A stretch of 64,000 nucleotides of DNA from NCBI RefSeq assembly GCF_001753165.1, contig NZ_CP017448.1:1444462-1508461 (forward strand), written 5' to 3'. This document shows positions 5,021 to 12,645 of the stretch, piece by piece (within the stretch, counting starts at the first letter, position 1; every line of letters begins with the position of its first letter). The stretch is from Acidihalobacter aeolianus (GTDB lineage Bacteria > Pseudomonadota > Gammaproteobacteria > DSM-5130 > Acidihalobacteraceae). Below the pieces are notes generated by a model, which was given only the letters and a program-made list of their open reading frames with translations, did no database searches and had not been told where the DNA came from. The position numbers were made by a program, and so were the translations under genes.

Positions 5021-5443
5021 TTAATGCGTGACGGCCTGCTCGGTTTCGGCGGCCGTCAGGACATCGATCACGCGTCGCCAGTTGTCGATATCGAAATCGA
5101 TATCCATCTCGTCGAAATATTCCTTGGCGTTGTCGACCATATCCTGCATCACCAGGGCCACATAGCGCGGTGCGGCGTCCGACTGCGTGATCTTCTCCGG
5201 CACGGCAGCCTCGAAATACAGCGTATCGCCCTGCTTGTCGTAGCCGCCCATGCGCATCCCCGTAAACGGCGGCGCTTCCTGCTTGCTCGACAGCATAAAG
5301 GTGATGTCCAGCGTCGGCCCCGCCGGGAACCGCCCCTGGCGATTCTCCATGGCCGCATGCGCCGCCACGAATGTGATGGCCTCGTCGATCGGACTCTTCG
5401 CCATGTCCTGGCTCGGACTGTTGATGCTGATGAATAGCTTCAT
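5021..5443 (-). CDS. Unknown 140-residue protein under a sigma-54 promoter
   Basis: I do not recognise this protein. It is 140 residues, acidic, without a signal peptide, membrane segment or cysteine motif. It begins MKLFISINSP and ends with an acidic helix-rich part (DMVDNAKEYFDEMDIDFDID). The ATG at 5443 is preceded on the minus strand by AGGGCG as a weak ribosome site. The frame is open further upstream, but that stretch would overlap the promoter described below. A sigma-54-type promoter sits about 40 bp upstream of the start. Its GC content and codon use match the core genome. Its placement beside nifJ and the other sigma-54 genes suggests an accessory role in nitrogen fixation or anaerobic metabolism; this is inference. 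Confidence 0.75.
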   Translation of the reverse strand: MKLFISINSPSQDMAKSPIDEAITFVAAHAAMENRQGRFPAGPTLDITFMLSSKQEAPPFTGMRMGGYDKQGDTLYFEAAVPEKITQSDAAPRYVALVMQDMVDNAKEYFDEMDIDFDIDNWRRVIDVLTAAETEQAVTH

Positions 5444-6862: not shown

Positions 6863-8566
6863 GTAACTACTCAGCTAATTCTCAGAGATCGCCAGAGCAA
6901 AAGCCGGTAGCTTGCGATCGAATACTAGGCGCAACGCCTCCGAAGCCGTGACCCCCTGCTTTCGGCAGGTCGATAGATATCCCCGTATGCGGCAAAACAT
7001 CGCGGCACCCTCCAGGCTGCGGAAGCAGCCGGAGATCTTCTGCTGCACTTTGGTCATACGGATATCGTTCTCCGCCTGATTGTTCGTGAACGGCACATTG
7101 ACGTCCACCATGAAACGCAGCACATCGTCTTCATAGGCCATCAGACGCTCCAGCAGATTGCGGGCCTTGCTCCGCTTGATCCGCCCCCGAGGCTTGTTGT
7201 CGGGTGGTTTTTCCGGCTCAGGGCATTCCAGTTGCCCCGCCTCGAGCACATCTCGGTAGCGCTGCCGGTAAGCATTGGCCTCGGTCAGCGGCAGGATGCC
7301 GCCAGCGTTCTCGACGGCCTGATGAATCTCTCTGAGCAGCTTGCCCATCGCTTCCGCCCATTGTTGTCCGTCCTGCTCGAATGCTCGTTCCAGTTCGCGC
7401 AGGTGGTGGGCATTGCACAGGGCATGGGTGCAGTCCCGATAACGGTAATAGGGTTTCCAATGGTCATGACACAGCACACCGCGGAACCGTGGCAGGATCC
7501 CGATCGCGTCCATCGCCTCCTGGCCTCGCTTACTGTGGACCTGATAATGCGTCCAATCAGCATTGGACAGACCATGCAGCCAATGGCGTTTGCCATCAAT
7601 GTTGACCCCGGTCTCGTCGGCATGAGCGGACACGGCTTTGGCCAATGCCGTTTTGCTGATCGCCTCAAAGGCCGCCAGGCGGGTAAATGCCTCGCGATTG
7701 AAGTTCACCAGTGAACCATCGCTCAAAGGGATGCCCAACTGATCGGCAAAGTAATCCTGGATCCGCTTGTAGGGCAAGAGCTGATATTGGGACAGATAGA
7801 CGGCATGGGCCTTGAGGCCGGAACCATACTGCACCTTCTTATCCACCCCTTCCGGGAATGAAGCCACAAAACGTTGGCCTGATTCATTCTCCAGGATCTG
7901 CGCCCGATACTCGGTCACGATCCGGCTGATGTCGATATCAAAAACCTGGCGAGTCTCGAAACCCGCCTCGGTATAGCAGCCTTTCGGCAAGCGACGACGA
8001 TCGATCTTGAGGACCTCGATCTCATCGGGATGCTCGACCGGGCGCAAGGTCTTGCCCACGTGCCCCGGCTGGCCACCGGAAGGTCGGCTTGAGCGCACAC
8101 GCTGGCTGCGTGGCCGATTGGGATCCGATGCCGGCGGCTGACTGCTGTTGCGGCTATTGAGCCCGAGACGGTTGAGTAACACGACGAACAACATGAGCAT
8201 CATCTCGATACTGGCGCGGAGTGCCGGAGATAGGTCTTTCTCCTGCTCCAGTTGCGCCCTGACCTGTGCCAGGGTGATCTCGATATCGACGCCGTCGATC
8301 CGCACGCAAGACTGCTCCAAAGAAGTAATGAAGCTATTATCTCACGGGTTTTGAAGTGCCAATTTTCTCGTTTGTAAGGCGATCTGGCGGCGTAAAATAA
8401 TTGACTGACGGTGGGGCAGTGCCTCGCGTGATGTCGCAAGGAAGACTACGCCTCTGTCGCTTTCGGAGACCAATAATCGCACTCGTTACAGCGCCGCCAT
8501 ATTTTCAAAAAAACTACCAAAAACCCTGTCAAGTACTTTTTGTAATTATTTTCACTGAGTAGTTAC
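6863..8566. mobile_element. IS66-family insertion sequence (single-ORF, ISBst12-like)
   Basis: The element is 1704 bp. Its ends are the 12-bp inverted repeats GTAACTACTCAG (6863-6874) and CTGAGTAGTTAC (8555-8566), starting with the GTAA typical of IS66. The flanking 8 bp are GTCATTTT (6855-6862) and GTAATTTT (8567-8574). They match at 7 of 8 positions, as expected for the 8-bp target duplication of this family after one mutation. Only tnpC is present; tnpA and tnpB are absent, as in the ISBst12 group. About 240 bp upstream of the transposase are noncoding. Confidence 0.9.
6875..8320 (-). CDS. tnpC: IS66-family transposase TnpC
   Basis: The 481-residue protein shows the family layout: an N-terminal leucine-rich helix, the NSRNSSQPPASDP motif, a zinc-binding region, and a DDE catalytic domain (HADETGVNIDGKRHW; HDHWKPYYRY; the late E in PFTNNQAENDIRMTKVQQK). 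The stop codon abuts the terminal repeat. The start appears to be TTG at 8320, because an in-frame stop lies 24 bp upstream and the next Met is about 40 residues inside the conserved region. No strong ribosome site is visible. The frame is intact, so the element may still be active. Confidence 0.9.
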   Translation of the reverse strand: MEQSCVRIDGVDIEITLAQVRAQLEQEKDLSPALRASIEMMLMLFVVLLNRLGLNSRNSSQPPASDPNRPRSQRVRSSRPSGGQPGHVGKTLRPVEHPDEIEVLKIDRRRLPKGCYTEAGFETRQVFDIDISRIVTEYRAQILENESGQRFVASFPEGVDKKVQYGSGLKAHAVYLSQYQLLPYKRIQDYFADQLGIPLSDGSLVNFNREAFTRLAAFEAISKTALAKAVSAHADETGVNIDGKRHWLHGLSNADWTHYQVHSKRGQEAMDAIGILPRFRGVLCHDHWKPYYRYRDCTHALCNAHHLRELERAFEQDGQQWAEAMGKLLREIHQAVENAGGILPLTEANAYRQRYRDVLEAGQLECPEPEKPPDNKPRGRIKRSKARNLLERLMAYEDDVLRFMVDVNVPFTNNQAENDIRMTKVQQKISGCFRSLEGAAMFCRIRGYLSTCRKQGVTASEALRLVFDRKLPAFALAISEN

Positions 8567-9675: not shown

Positions 9676-9691
9676 TGTACCAAACCCGACA
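9676..9691 (+). promoter_or_regulatory. NifA-type upstream activator site (TGT-N10-ACA)
   Basis: TGTACCAAACCCGACA fits the NifA consensus exactly. It lies 72 bp upstream of the flavodoxin sigma-54 promoter, a usual distance for a looping enhancer-binding protein. Confidence 0.6.
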
Positions 9692-9762
9692 AATACCCGC
9701 CTTCAAGCCGACGCGCCCCAAAGGCCATCGCAAAAACCTACTTATAAACAATGGTTAACCTC

Positions 9763-9778
9763 TGGTATGGGGTTTGCT
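9763..9778 (+). promoter_or_regulatory. Sigma-54 promoter of the flavodoxin gene
   Basis: TGGTATGGGGTTTGCT has GG (9764-9765) and GC (9776-9777) exactly 10 bases apart. The predicted transcript starts near 9789, leaving a leader of about 100 bases. The AAA+ promoter at 10650 is identical except for one base. Confidence 0.8.
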
Positions 9779-9887
9779 TCGCCCTTCATGTACTCAGACG
9801 ACGTTCGTTTCGGTCAATCGTCCAGCGACGGACGCTGCACAGCCCGGATCGGGAAACGTCCCGTTAGCCCTTGGGAGGCGAAGCACC

Positions 9888-10439
9888 ATGAACAAGATCG
9901 GCATCATTTTCGGTACGGATACCGGGACCACGCGTCTGATCGCCAAGAAGATCGCGAAGAAGCTGGGCGATCTGGCCGACAAGCCGGTGAATATCAACCG
10001 CATCGGCCTCGATGAGCTGATGCAATACGACTTCCTGATTCTCGGCACGCCCACCTACGGCTACGGGCAGCTGCCGGGCAAGGATACGAATATCGCCGAC
10101 GGCAGTTGGGCGGAGATTCTGCCGGAGCTGCAGAAGGCGGATCTCAGCGGCAAGCTGGTGGCGCTCTACGGTCTCGGCAATCGGGACAAGTACGGCGACC
10201 GCTTCGCCGATTCGCTGTTCTACCTCTATGATGCCGTCAAGAACGCCGGCGCGACCGTCATCGGCAGCTGGGGCACGGAGGGGTACGACTACCAGTTCTC
10301 CAAATCCGAGGTGGACGGGCGTTTCGTCGGGCTCGTGATCGATCACAACAGCCAGGGTCTGCTGACGGATCAGCGCATCGACGAGTGGCTGGATCGGATC
10401 ATGCCGCAGTTCGAGCAGCAACTGGCGGCCAGCGCCTGA
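9888..10439 (+). CDS. fldA/nifF: Flavodoxin, probably NifF-type
   Basis: The 183-residue protein is a long-chain flavodoxin. The FMN phosphate loop is GTDTGTTR (residues 9-16), PTYGYGQLPG follows as the first isoalloxazine loop, and GLGNRDKYGDRF as the second. Flavodoxin carries single electrons at low potential. NifJ is its classical reductase and nitrogenase its acceptor in several diazotrophs. The start ATG 9888 has a GGGAGGCG ribosome site. The sigma-54 promoter and NifA-type site upstream support a NifF role. A weak hairpin (about 10459-10489) follows the gene. Confidence 0.92.
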   Translation: MNKIGIIFGTDTGTTRLIAKKIAKKLGDLADKPVNINRIGLDELMQYDFLILGTPTYGYGQLPGKDTNIADGSWAEILPELQKADLSGKLVALYGLGNRDKYGDRFADSLFYLYDAVKNAGATVIGSWGTEGYDYQFSKSEVDGRFVGLVIDHNSQGLLTDQRIDEWLDRIMPQFEQQLAASA

Positions 10440-10501: not shown

Positions 10502-10517
10502 TGTCGACCCACGCACA
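10502..10517 (+). promoter_or_regulatory. NifA-type upstream activator site, distal
   Basis: TGTCGACCCACGCACA matches TGT-N10-ACA. It lies about 133 bp upstream of the sigma-54 promoter of the AAA+ gene. Confidence 0.55.
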
Positions 10518-10562
10518 ACCTTGATCGGCAACGGCGAAGCAGATCCGTGACATGGTTGGGCG

Positions 10563-10578
10563 TGTGTCAAAGCCCACA
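10563..10578 (+). promoter_or_regulatory. NifA-type upstream activator site, proximal
   Basis: TGTGTCAAAGCCCACA matches TGT-N10-ACA. It lies about 72 bp upstream of the sigma-54 promoter, the same spacing as at the flavodoxin gene. Two sites in tandem are common at nif promoters. Confidence 0.6.
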
Positions 10579-10649
10579 ATCTCAGGCGCTCCGACCGACA
10601 TGCCTCAGGTGGCGCCTGAAAAAACCATTCAAAAACAAGCGACAATCAC

Positions 10650-10665
10650 TGGTATGGGCTTTGCT
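10650..10665 (+). promoter_or_regulatory. Sigma-54 promoter of the AAA+ ATPase gene
   Basis: TGGTATGGGCTTTGCT has the required GG-N10-GC spacing (GG 10651-10652, GC 10663-10664). The predicted transcript starts near 10676, about 53 bp before the ATG. Confidence 0.8.
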
Positions 10666-10728: not shown

Positions 10729-12438
10729 ATGAAGCTCCAGCTCGAACGATCCTATGTAGAGGCCATGGTCAGCGCGTTTCCCGACCTGAGTCCGCTGTCC
10801 GAACAGTTGCGCTTCGGCAATCGCGCCGAGGTCGGCATTCATCAGCTTTCGGCGCCCGCGTTGACCTACCTGCACGACCTGTATCGGCAGGCCGGGCCGG
10901 TGGCTTACGGCCGTGCCGCACAGATCGCCACGCTGCGCGAGGCATTCAACGACGATGGGGCCGAGCGCTTCGGCAGCGACGATCTGGAGCAGGTGCTTCC
11001 GGCGCTGGCGCAGTATCTGGTCGACGGCGGCGTGCGCGGCTGGCTGTTCCGCGCGACCAGCTCGGCCAAGCCGCTGGCCTACGTGATCACGCGCCTGGAC
11101 TACACGCCGCCGGGCGACGAGGAAGCCGGGCGCATCCTGCTTGAGCTGAAGGCCAACGCCTACGGCAAGATCGTCACCGAGACGTTGATCATTCGCAACC
11201 GCGACATTGTCGGGCGCACCGTCGCCGAGATCCTGGCCCATCGCGGCTACCTCAAGGAAAGCGCGGAACTGCTGCGCGCCTACGACGAATCCACCGAGCG
11301 CTATTTCGCCTGGCGGGCCGATTACGGCAGGCAGTTCTCGGCGAGCGGCACCGGGTTTTATGCCGAGGACCCGACGGCCAGCCATCGCACCACCGACTGG
11401 ACGCGCAAGGAGACTGTGGTGCTGTCGACCACCGGCAATGCCGCGCGGATGGTCAACGACGAGGAGATCCTCGGCCAGCGCGTCACGGGGTTCGAGGGCT
11501 CGGGCGACATACTGCGCGCCTATCTGCGCAAGGCCGCCAAGAGCATGCGCTACGACGAGAAGGTGGAGAGCCGCATGGAGGCCTCCAACGAGGCCATCCC
11601 CAAGGGCATGTTCACCGAACTGCCCGTGCACGGCTACATCCTCATGTTCCACCTCGAGCTGCACCACCATCTGTGGGTCCACGTCGAGGACATGGAGCCC
11701 TACACCTACCAGCCAGAGCTCAAGGAAAAGCTGATCCTGCCGCGCGAGCAGACCGACCTGATCGACATCCTCACCGCCGAGATGGACGTGTTGATGGACG
11801 ACATCGTCGCGGGCAAGTCCGGCGGCACCACGGTGCTCTGCGCCGGGCCGGCGGGCATGGGCAAGACCCTGACCGCCGAGGTGTACTCGGAAATCATCAA
11901 GCGCCCGCTGTACCGCGTGCACTCGGGCCAGCTCGGGCTGAACGTCGGCGAGATGGAAAAGGCGCTCAAGGAGACGCTGACGCGCGCGCAGCGCTGGGGT
12001 GCGGTGATGCTGATCGACGAGGCCGACGTCTACATCAAGCGGCGCGACGACAATATCGCCGCCAATGCCGTGGTCGGCGTGTTCCTGCGCGTGCTCGAAT
12101 ATTTCAACGGCCTGCTGTTCCTGACCACCAACCGGGTCGACGACATCGACGAGGCGATCATCTCACGCTGCATCGCGATGATCCGCTACCACCCGCCCGA
12201 GGAGAGCGACCGGCGGCGCATCTGGCAGGTGATGACGCGCCAGTTCGAGCTGGACGTCGATGAGGCTCTGCTGGAAACGCTGGTGACCGGTTTTCCCGAG
12301 GCCACCGGGCGGGACATCAAGGGGCTGGCCAAGCTGGTGGCCAAGTTCTGCCAGCACAAACAACTGCCGCCGAACCTGGAGGCTTTCGAACGCTGCGCCA
12401 TGTTCCGCGGCATGGAACTCAGAATCGCCGCCGCTTGA
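10729..12438 (+). CDS. AAA+ ATPase with a large novel N-terminal region, NifA/sigma-54 controlled
   Basis: The 569-residue protein has a C-terminal AAA+ module. It shows Walker A GPAGMGKT (373-380), Walker B VMLIDEAD (D430, E431), sensor 1 at N468 (LTTNRV), a candidate arginine finger at R480 (ISR) and a sensor-2-like GRDIKGL (R528). The first 340 residues carry no motif I recognise. They include a histidine-rich patch (HLELHHHLWVHVED, 308-321), and no membrane segment is visible. Such proteins remodel or unfold partners. The regulatory sites place it with nitrogen fixation; a role in maturing, repairing or protecting nitrogenase is inference only. The 58-residue gene 30 bp downstream is probably its operon partner. 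Confidence 0.85.
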   Translation: MKLQLERSYVEAMVSAFPDLSPLSEQLRFGNRAEVGIHQLSAPALTYLHDLYRQAGPVAYGRAAQIATLREAFNDDGAERFGSDDLEQVLPALAQYLVDGGVRGWLFRATSSAKPLAYVITRLDYTPPGDEEAGRILLELKANAYGKIVTETLIIRNRDIVGRTVAEILAHRGYLKESAELLRAYDESTERYFAWRADYGRQFSASGTGFYAEDPTASHRTTDWTRKETVVLSTTGNAARMVNDEEILGQRVTGFEGSGDILRAYLRKAAKSMRYDEKVESRMEASNEAIPKGMFTELPVHGYILMFHLELHHHLWVHVEDMEPYTYQPELKEKLILPREQTDLIDILTAEMDVLMDDIVAGKSGGTTVLCAGPAGMGKTLTAEVYSEIIKRPLYRVHSGQLGLNVGEMEKALKETLTRAQRWGAVMLIDEADVYIKRRDDNIAANAVVGVFLRVLEYFNGLLFLTTNRVDDIDEAIISRCIAMIRYHPPEESDRRRIWQVMTRQFELDVDEALLETLVTGFPEATGRDIKGLAKLVAKFCQHKQLPPNLEAFERCAMFRGMELRIAAA

Positions 12439-12468
12439 ACGCCGGCGGCCAGACACGGGAGTACCGCA

Positions 12469-12645
12469 ATGGCGGATGTCACCTTCAACGGCATGACCAT
12501 GGAATTCAGCATCGTCGAATTCCAGATGGAAGCCGCTCTCAAGGCCCAGGTCGAGGCTGCAAACCCGGGTTCGAGCGAGCAGGACCTGCTCGACGCCTAT
12601 CTGACGGCGCACAAGGAACACTTCGGCAAGGATTTCCTGCAATAG
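12469..12645 (+). CDS. Small 58-residue protein downstream of the AAA+ ATPase
   Basis: This frame runs from ATG 12469 to TAG 12643-12645 with a CGGGAG ribosome site, 30 bp after the ATPase stop. The product starts MADVTFNGMTMEF and is mostly one or two acidic amphipathic helices (FQMEAALKAQVEAA; DLLDAYLTAHKEHF). It has no cysteines and no signal peptide. Codon use and GC content match its neighbour. It may be a substrate adaptor or subunit of the ATPase; nothing proves that. Confidence 0.7.
   Translation: MADVTFNGMTMEFSIVEFQMEAALKAQVEAANPGSSEQDLLDAYLTAHKEHFGKDFLQ

Follow-up and report, generated by a model that had tools for sequence, protein, structure and literature searches.

A probable nif-regulon AAA+ ATPase in Acidihalobacter aeolianus and the AcrIC5-family protein encoded behind it

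In the 64,000 nucleotides of Acidihalobacter aeolianus DNA analyzed here (the window), a gene for an AAA+ ATPase lies behind what looks like a NifA-dependent promoter and is followed at once by a very small gene. This raises the question of what such a motor might contribute to the nitrogen-fixing state, and whether the small protein works with it. The initial annotation had proposed a remodelling ATPase with a dedicated partner that could act on nitrogenase or its cofactor proteins. The features on which the argument draws are as follows:

9882..10439, plus strand: nifF-like long-chain flavodoxin, preceded by a NifA site of its own (9676-9691) and a sigma-54 promoter (9763-9777)
10502..10517, plus strand: NifA site 1, TGT-N10-ACA
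10563..10578, plus strand: NifA site 2, TGT-N10-ACA
10650..10664, plus strand: sigma-54 promoter, TGGTATGGGCTTTGC
10729..12438, plus strand: AAA+ ATPase of 569 aa, nif-regulon subfamily
10729..11748, plus strand: N-terminal region of the ATPase (residues 1-340), which plasmid and phage relatives conserve and which has no Pfam name
11650..11682, plus strand: histidine cluster HLELHHHLWVH, residues 308-318
11845..11868, plus strand: Walker A, GPAGMGKT, residue 373
12004..12021, plus strand: Walker B, VMLIDE, residue 426
12469..12645, plus strand: AcrIC5-family protein of 58 aa

Both open reading frames proved to be real, with the small one directly after the ATPase, as had been proposed: they lie 30 bases apart on the plus strand, with a third-position GC of 0.89 (ATPase) and 0.79 (small gene). 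Four homologues of the 58-aa protein are encoded at the same place in other loci (53–67% identity to the window protein, 50–67% pairwise), and among the five small genes changes are commonest at third positions in ten of ten pairs, dN being lower than dS in five pairs and dS being saturated in the other five. Since homologues occupy the same place and changes concentrate in third positions, the small open reading frame is a gene. The small nif locus that holds the pair is approximately 530 kb from nifH. Elsewhere in the window, a transposase gene that by eye is of the IS66 type (6875-8320, minus strand) stands between a 2OG-oxygenase gene and an MTHFR-like gene, and positions 5024-5443 (minus strand) encode a 140-aa protein of an unnamed family, without a Pfam match, which is also found near the ATPase in six related loci; its relative at L027:10919-11338 gave no match in Pfam and NCBIfam searches.

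When both strands of the 64 kb were searched for a NifA site followed at 30–250 bases by a sigma-54 motif, two promoters were found, those of the ATPase and the flavodoxin. The two (9676-9777 for the flavodoxin and 10502-10664 for the ATPase) are almost identical near the sigma-54 site, reading TGGTATGGGGTTTGCTTCG and TGGTATGGGCTTTGCTTCG, respectively, as if one had been copied. Of 78 related loci in which 149 bases or more precede the ATPase, 14 have the motif pair within 300 bases, the background being 196 of 20,000 random 300-mers from the same loci; the pair is absent within that distance from the other 64, and many of these copies lie inside operons. The pair also recurs far from nif: in three Azotobacter loci, NifA sites at −143 and −110 are followed by a sigma-54 site at −53, and the Azotobacter vinelandii copy is located at about 1.80 Mb, with NifH-family genes at 0.14, 0.25, and 4.96 Mb.

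A study of Azoarcus BH72 describes azo3791 as a conserved hypothetical ATPase of the NifA regulon, one of eight genes that have both a predicted sigma-54 site and a predicted NifA site and that, by the paper's counts, are upregulated under N2 fixation and NifA-regulated (PMC3916325). In genome G591, an ATPase gene with both promoter motifs lies at 4.238 Mb, and NifH at 0.579 Mb; open reading frames with NiFe-hydrogenase motifs flank the ATPase on both sides, together with genes that by eye are hyp-like. This layout fits azo3791 (ATPase), azo0538 (nifH), and azo3807 (hoxB), and from map position, both motifs, and the hydrogenase neighbors, azo3791 is probably the orthologue of the window ATPase, which it resembles in its reported NifA regulation. 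The Azoarcus-like G591 differs from the window in that no AcrIC5-like open reading frame was found in its stretches, and none was found in the Rhodocyclaceae-type loci L198–L216, with about 1.5 kb of flank each. The two TGT-N10-ACA sites and the sigma-54 promoter before the ATPase, together with the regulation reported for its probable orthologue, support the NifA control that had been proposed; the ATPase is very probably a member of the nif regulon.

To obtain relatives of the ATPase, one genome per species was scanned with three nif-linked ATPases; 249 were found, and the best 80 were kept (66–78% identity, nearly all over the whole length). NifH scored above its cut-off in 74 of the 81 genomes with a close copy (the A. 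aeolianus genome and the best 80 of 249), was in pieces in three (G491, G523, and G556), and was not found in four MAGs (G487, G489, G494, and G539). Because these loci are the best of 249 for nif-borne queries, this rate is valid for that subfamily only. In a set of 398 Pseudomonadota, taken to be the same genomes in the NifH and ATPase scans since the listed handles agree, NifH was above cut-off in 38 and partial in two more. A nif-type ATPase (at least 787 bits, with at most three candidates scored per genome) was present in four of the 38 (G000, G166, G099, and G103), compared with one of the other 360 (G158), an association with a Fisher p of 3e-4, or 0.003 without the A. aeolianus genome, in statistics that ignore shared ancestry. 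The G158 copy (C7:2835-4528) is split over two frames in a genome that is 99% complete and has no NifH; the split may reflect decay after nif loss, or a sequencing error. Similarly, the family of G554 (150 genomes) contains five distant-type copies and 14 of the nif type, of which two are partial; NifH was found in 13 of the 14 and in none of the five, and in 8 of 20 genomes tested out of the 131 without a copy (in one of the eight, in two pieces). These counts tie the subfamily strongly to diazotrophs, as the initial annotation would lead one to expect.

Conversely, 34 of the 38 NifH-positive Pseudomonadota lack the gene, as does G002, a genome of the same genus in which NifH is present, and the 95 genomes around that of A. 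aeolianus, mostly of its class, contain one other close copy (G049). The ATPase must therefore be dispensable, and since the subfamily tracks NifH and yet is missing from most genomes that have NifH, we regard it as an accessory gene. No connection with the ATPase family could be established for Achr_2540, a guessed AAA-ATPase whose gene has vnf genes on both sides (PMC4465626).

In 33 of the 81 loci, roughly two fifths, one or more of six nif marker families are represented within 12 kb of the ATPase, and in the other 48 none is, though many contigs are short; a NifH-like match at L050 (39 bits), which reads as another ParA-type ATPase, was excluded from this count. Neighboring Pfam families include Nitro_FeMo-Co, Oxidored_nitro, DUF269, Rop-like, 2Fe-2S thioredoxin-like ferredoxin, ankyrin, rhodanese, GST, DUF364/DUF4213, TOBE, SIR2_2, DUF6156, and nitroreductase, and molybdate transport genes were recognized by eye. 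In Methylococcus sp. EFPC2, a plasmid-borne copy of the ATPase with 67% identity is downstream of hscA, fdx, nifV, nifW, grxD, and a bolA-type gene. Another reading of such neighborhoods is that the ATPase works outside nitrogenase assembly itself, for a different metalloenzyme of nitrogen-fixing cells or for one of their stress responses, such as uptake hydrogenase, globin, or oxygen/nitrosative protection. The hydrogenase genes beside the G591 copy (the one genome covered by the hydrogenase search), the bacterial globin adjoining the A. vinelandii copy, the GST-type gene near the ATPase in 19 of 81 loci, and the 48 loci with no nif marker nearby would all suit this explanation, but the 33 loci among nif/FeMo-co genes argue against it, and we think it rather unlikely.

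Several neighbors are of interest in their own right. Of the 81 loci, 31 encode an unnamed protein of about 186 aa (L078:9324-9893) in the vicinity of the ATPase, in most cases immediately before it and in methanotrophs; this protein has no match in Pfam or NCBIfam. At L058:7838-8677, a SIR2_2-domain protein of 279 aa is encoded between nifH and the ATPase; its size is reminiscent of PnfA of Pseudomonas stutzeri (PMC2820453). Finally, an unnamed protein of 117–135 aa with the motif LKI(L/M)D(G/D)KCKM is encoded close to the ATPase in 15 of the 81 loci (L030:11908-12267, L034:2072-2437, and others), in many of them directly behind the ATPase or behind the AcrIC5-like gene; the L034 copy has no Pfam or NCBIfam match.

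The ATPase core is complete, all four motifs named in the initial annotation having been found: the Walker motifs at residues 373 and 426, TTN at residue 466, and ISRC at residue 478, the latter two being presumably sensor 1 and the arginine-finger region. AAA is the only Pfam family above cut-off (residues 369–482, E 4.5e-17), and a score of 63.2 bits against a curated cut-off of 21.2, together with Walker A and B, places the protein among the classic AAA ATPases (PF00004). Thirteen NCBIfam families match as well, every one within residues 332–548 and far under its own cut-off. In the AF2 model (66 sequences; pLDDT 85.6, pTM 0.82), residues 323–561 superimpose on p97/CDC48 D1 (Z 18.7, rmsd 3.0, 232 residues aligned), matches that concern the AAA part of the model. 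Such a motor would be expected to work as a hexameric remodeller. Pore loop 1, which we place by eye at residues 401–407 against p97, has an aromatic residue in none of the 66 aligned rows, so that unfolding by threading is not to be assumed as a matter of course. PHROG 29662, to which the protein is related, and the records of phages PBS1 and AR9 bear the label of an ATP-dependent protease; this label is annotation, however, the HExxH motif of FtsH-type proteases is absent from the ATPase and from 64 of 65 aligned relatives, the ATPase contains no IGF string, and we consider it most improbable that this protein is a protease.

The front 340 residues had been thought to match nothing, which holds in so far as they have no Pfam name; however, PHROG 29662 covers residues 86–563 (E 1.1e-107), and plasmid, phage, and viral relatives extend through the front part. 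They did not turn out to belong to a known family with an unrelated role, an outcome that would have counted against the original proposal. Among plasmids, 317 records match the ATPase, 148 of them covering 80% or more of the query, and homologues bearing the front part are 34–41% identical (four aligned), while Bacillus phages PBS1, AR9, and Goe21 encode proteins with 37% identity over 95% of the length. A scan of viral contigs with the ATPase sequence alone gave no relative; a seven-row alignment gave 116, of which 80 were kept, some matching over nearly the whole length and others in the AAA part alone; the 37 that were aligned, as homologues bearing the front part, have 24–40% identity. 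We know of no tested role for these PHROG 29662-type ATPases of phages and plasmids.

The ATPases of PBS1/AR9 and of large plasmids are thus homologous to the window protein through the front part; the plasmid relatives differ from it in having no nif link in the four neighborhoods read, and a further difference concerns the histidine cluster, which is present as first described. Residues H308, H312, H313, and H318 of the cluster do not vary among the 29 nif-type rows of alignment A4, whereas over the full set of 66 rows, 26 have D in column 308. A metal site at this cluster is possible, judging from sequence conservation. AAA+ machines that act on metalloenzymes or their assembly factors include ClpX2 of the A. 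vinelandii nif cluster and the CbbQ/CbbX and NorQ activases; these belong to other AAA+ clades, whereas the window ATPase combines a classic-AAA module with a front part of its own, 340 residues long.

Taking promoter, distribution, and architecture together, we tentatively favor, at somewhat under an even chance, a classic-clade AAA+ ATPase induced by NifA and sigma-54 that acts as an accessory remodeller for nitrogen fixation with a metallocluster client. The N-terminal half would hold this client, which may be a metallocluster protein that functions during nitrogen fixation, the likeliest candidates being those of the cofactor-assembly machinery (NifX/NafY/NifEN type); remodelling in nitrogenase assembly is a guess from gene company and fold. 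In one gammaproteobacterial clade, an AcrIC5-fold protein would have been added behind the ATPase, where it probably acts on either the ATPase or its client, in the manner of an adaptor or regulator and not as an anti-CRISPR.

The 58-aa protein had been described as small, acidic, and helical. It is acidic (10 D/E, 3 K/R) but not merely helical, its model having two strands and three helices (pLDDT 82.9, five sequences). It matches Pfam AcrIC5 (PF22147) with 47.7 bits against a gathering cut-off of 27 (E 1.7e-12). The crystal sequence of AcrIC5 (PDB 7yhr) is matched by the protein itself with E 5e-6 and by a profile of the five nif-linked proteins with E 1.4e-11, and the model aligns with 7yhr at TM 0.75/0.74 over 57 columns (probability 1.00, E 2.8e-3; next match E 2.0); among viral models, a protein named AcrIC5-like ranks third (E 0.05, TM 0.75). 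By sequence and predicted fold, therefore, the protein belongs to the anti-CRISPR family AcrIC5. It is like AcrIC5 in profile, fold, small size, and acidity, and differs in having 32% identity to it, in its position behind an ATPase under a NifA-type promoter, and in the absence of a type I-C marker from its carriers. Orthologues of AcrIC5 are reported from Proteobacteria, Firmicutes, and Actinobacteria (PMC7913775), and another publication lists AcrIC5 with those acidic Acrs whose binding target is the DNA-binding site of the CRISPR complex (PMC10478522).

PF22147 was found in one of the 398 Pseudomonadota, A. aeolianus itself. Of four genomes from the order to which G488 belongs, the small-protein alignment A3 matched one, which was G488, and it matched no viral contig. 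The 58-aa query matched no plasmid or phage, and AcrIC5 as a query matched no plasmid and four phage records; an AcrIC5 profile run on the viral, plasmid, and other loci gathered found nothing beyond the five proteins and duplicates of two. Two AcrIC5-like stretches (MG945373.1:3778-3945 and KT264799.1:3729-3866; 54% and 48% identity to AcrIC5) lie in 5-kb Microviridae/gokushovirus records, where no feature is annotated.

Membership in this family suggests that the pair could be a defence/counter-defence module, in which the small protein blocks type I-C CRISPR and the ATPase is anti-phage. The matches of the AAA core to IetA and TRIP13, the wide spread of the ATPase family in phages and plasmids, and the IS66-type transposase (by eye) 2.4 kb upstream of the ATPase would be consistent with such a module. 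However, the best IetA match covers residues 327–535 of 569 and model positions 83–295 of 374, short of the whole length, and the two best are confined to residues 327–540; a NifA promoter precedes the ATPase; and Csd1, the type I-C marker, was not found in any of the five carrier genomes (four MAGs and the A. aeolianus genome, 99.99% complete), which speaks against an anti-CRISPR job. As to a setting on a phage or mobile element beside an aca regulator, a reading of the five loci by eye showed no HTH gene directly adjacent to the small gene, and in the window an IS66-type transposase is near. We consider a defence module very unlikely.

The small gene occurs in five of the 81 loci, directly 3' of the ATPase in all five. 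Its carriers fall in one gammaproteobacterial clade, a ten-row group with support 99 in a quick ATPase tree with long outgroup branches; of the other five rows, three lack the gene (L033, L034, and L037), and two are cut by contig ends (L031 and L039). By hand count, the chance of five carriers in one 10-row group out of 88 rows is 252/39175752, and a label-change test on the tree did not show clustering (5 changes, shuffled mean 4.9, starred branches forcing 3). A general dedicated partner, as initially envisaged, is not compatible with this restriction to a single clade, three members of which are without it. The pair does not occur mostly in non-diazotrophs, which would have weighed against the proposed role: NifH is above cut-off in four carriers (G000, G486, G488, and G492) and in pieces in the fifth (G491).

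In four of the five carriers, the window being the exception, the gene for the 117–135-aa protein starts 4–14 bases after the small gene, with a GST-type gene coming next in three of these four; in L033, L034, and L037, the 117–135-aa gene is directly behind the ATPase, without an AcrIC5-like gene. These unrelated genes indicate that the operon carries several small genes and, like the presence of the AcrIC5-like gene in only 5 of 81 loci, favor the view that the small protein is an independent passenger of the operon with no contact with the ATPase. Its constant position directly behind the ATPase, maintained at 50–67% pairwise identity, argues to the contrary, and we regard a passenger as a real possibility, though a doubtful one. 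As we see it, the 58-aa protein is an optional partner of the ATPase, for which, on adjacency alone, a role as an adaptor is plausible.

The surprise here is an AcrIC5-family protein behind a probable nif-regulon ATPase; azo3791 had already been published as a conserved hypothetical ATPase regulated by NifA (PMC3916325). One history, which we judge unlikely though worth stating, is domestication: a mobile-element ATPase would have become a NifA-controlled remodeller of nitrogenase biogenesis in many Pseudomonadota, with an AcrIC5-fold adaptor recruited in one clade. If this were true, a family known as anti-CRISPR would have a cellular function, and an AcrIC5-family member in a nif operon would signal that the fold also works outside phage counter-defence. 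The nif regulon has been examined in detail and is of interest to engineers. For this AAA+ motor with its NifA promoter, which A. vinelandii itself possesses, the open-licence papers found describe no function. The ATPase and its small partner point to an unstudied accessory part of nitrogen fixation; if the ATPase aids the assembly or protection of nitrogenase, it may be a missing part for nitrogen-fixation transfers.
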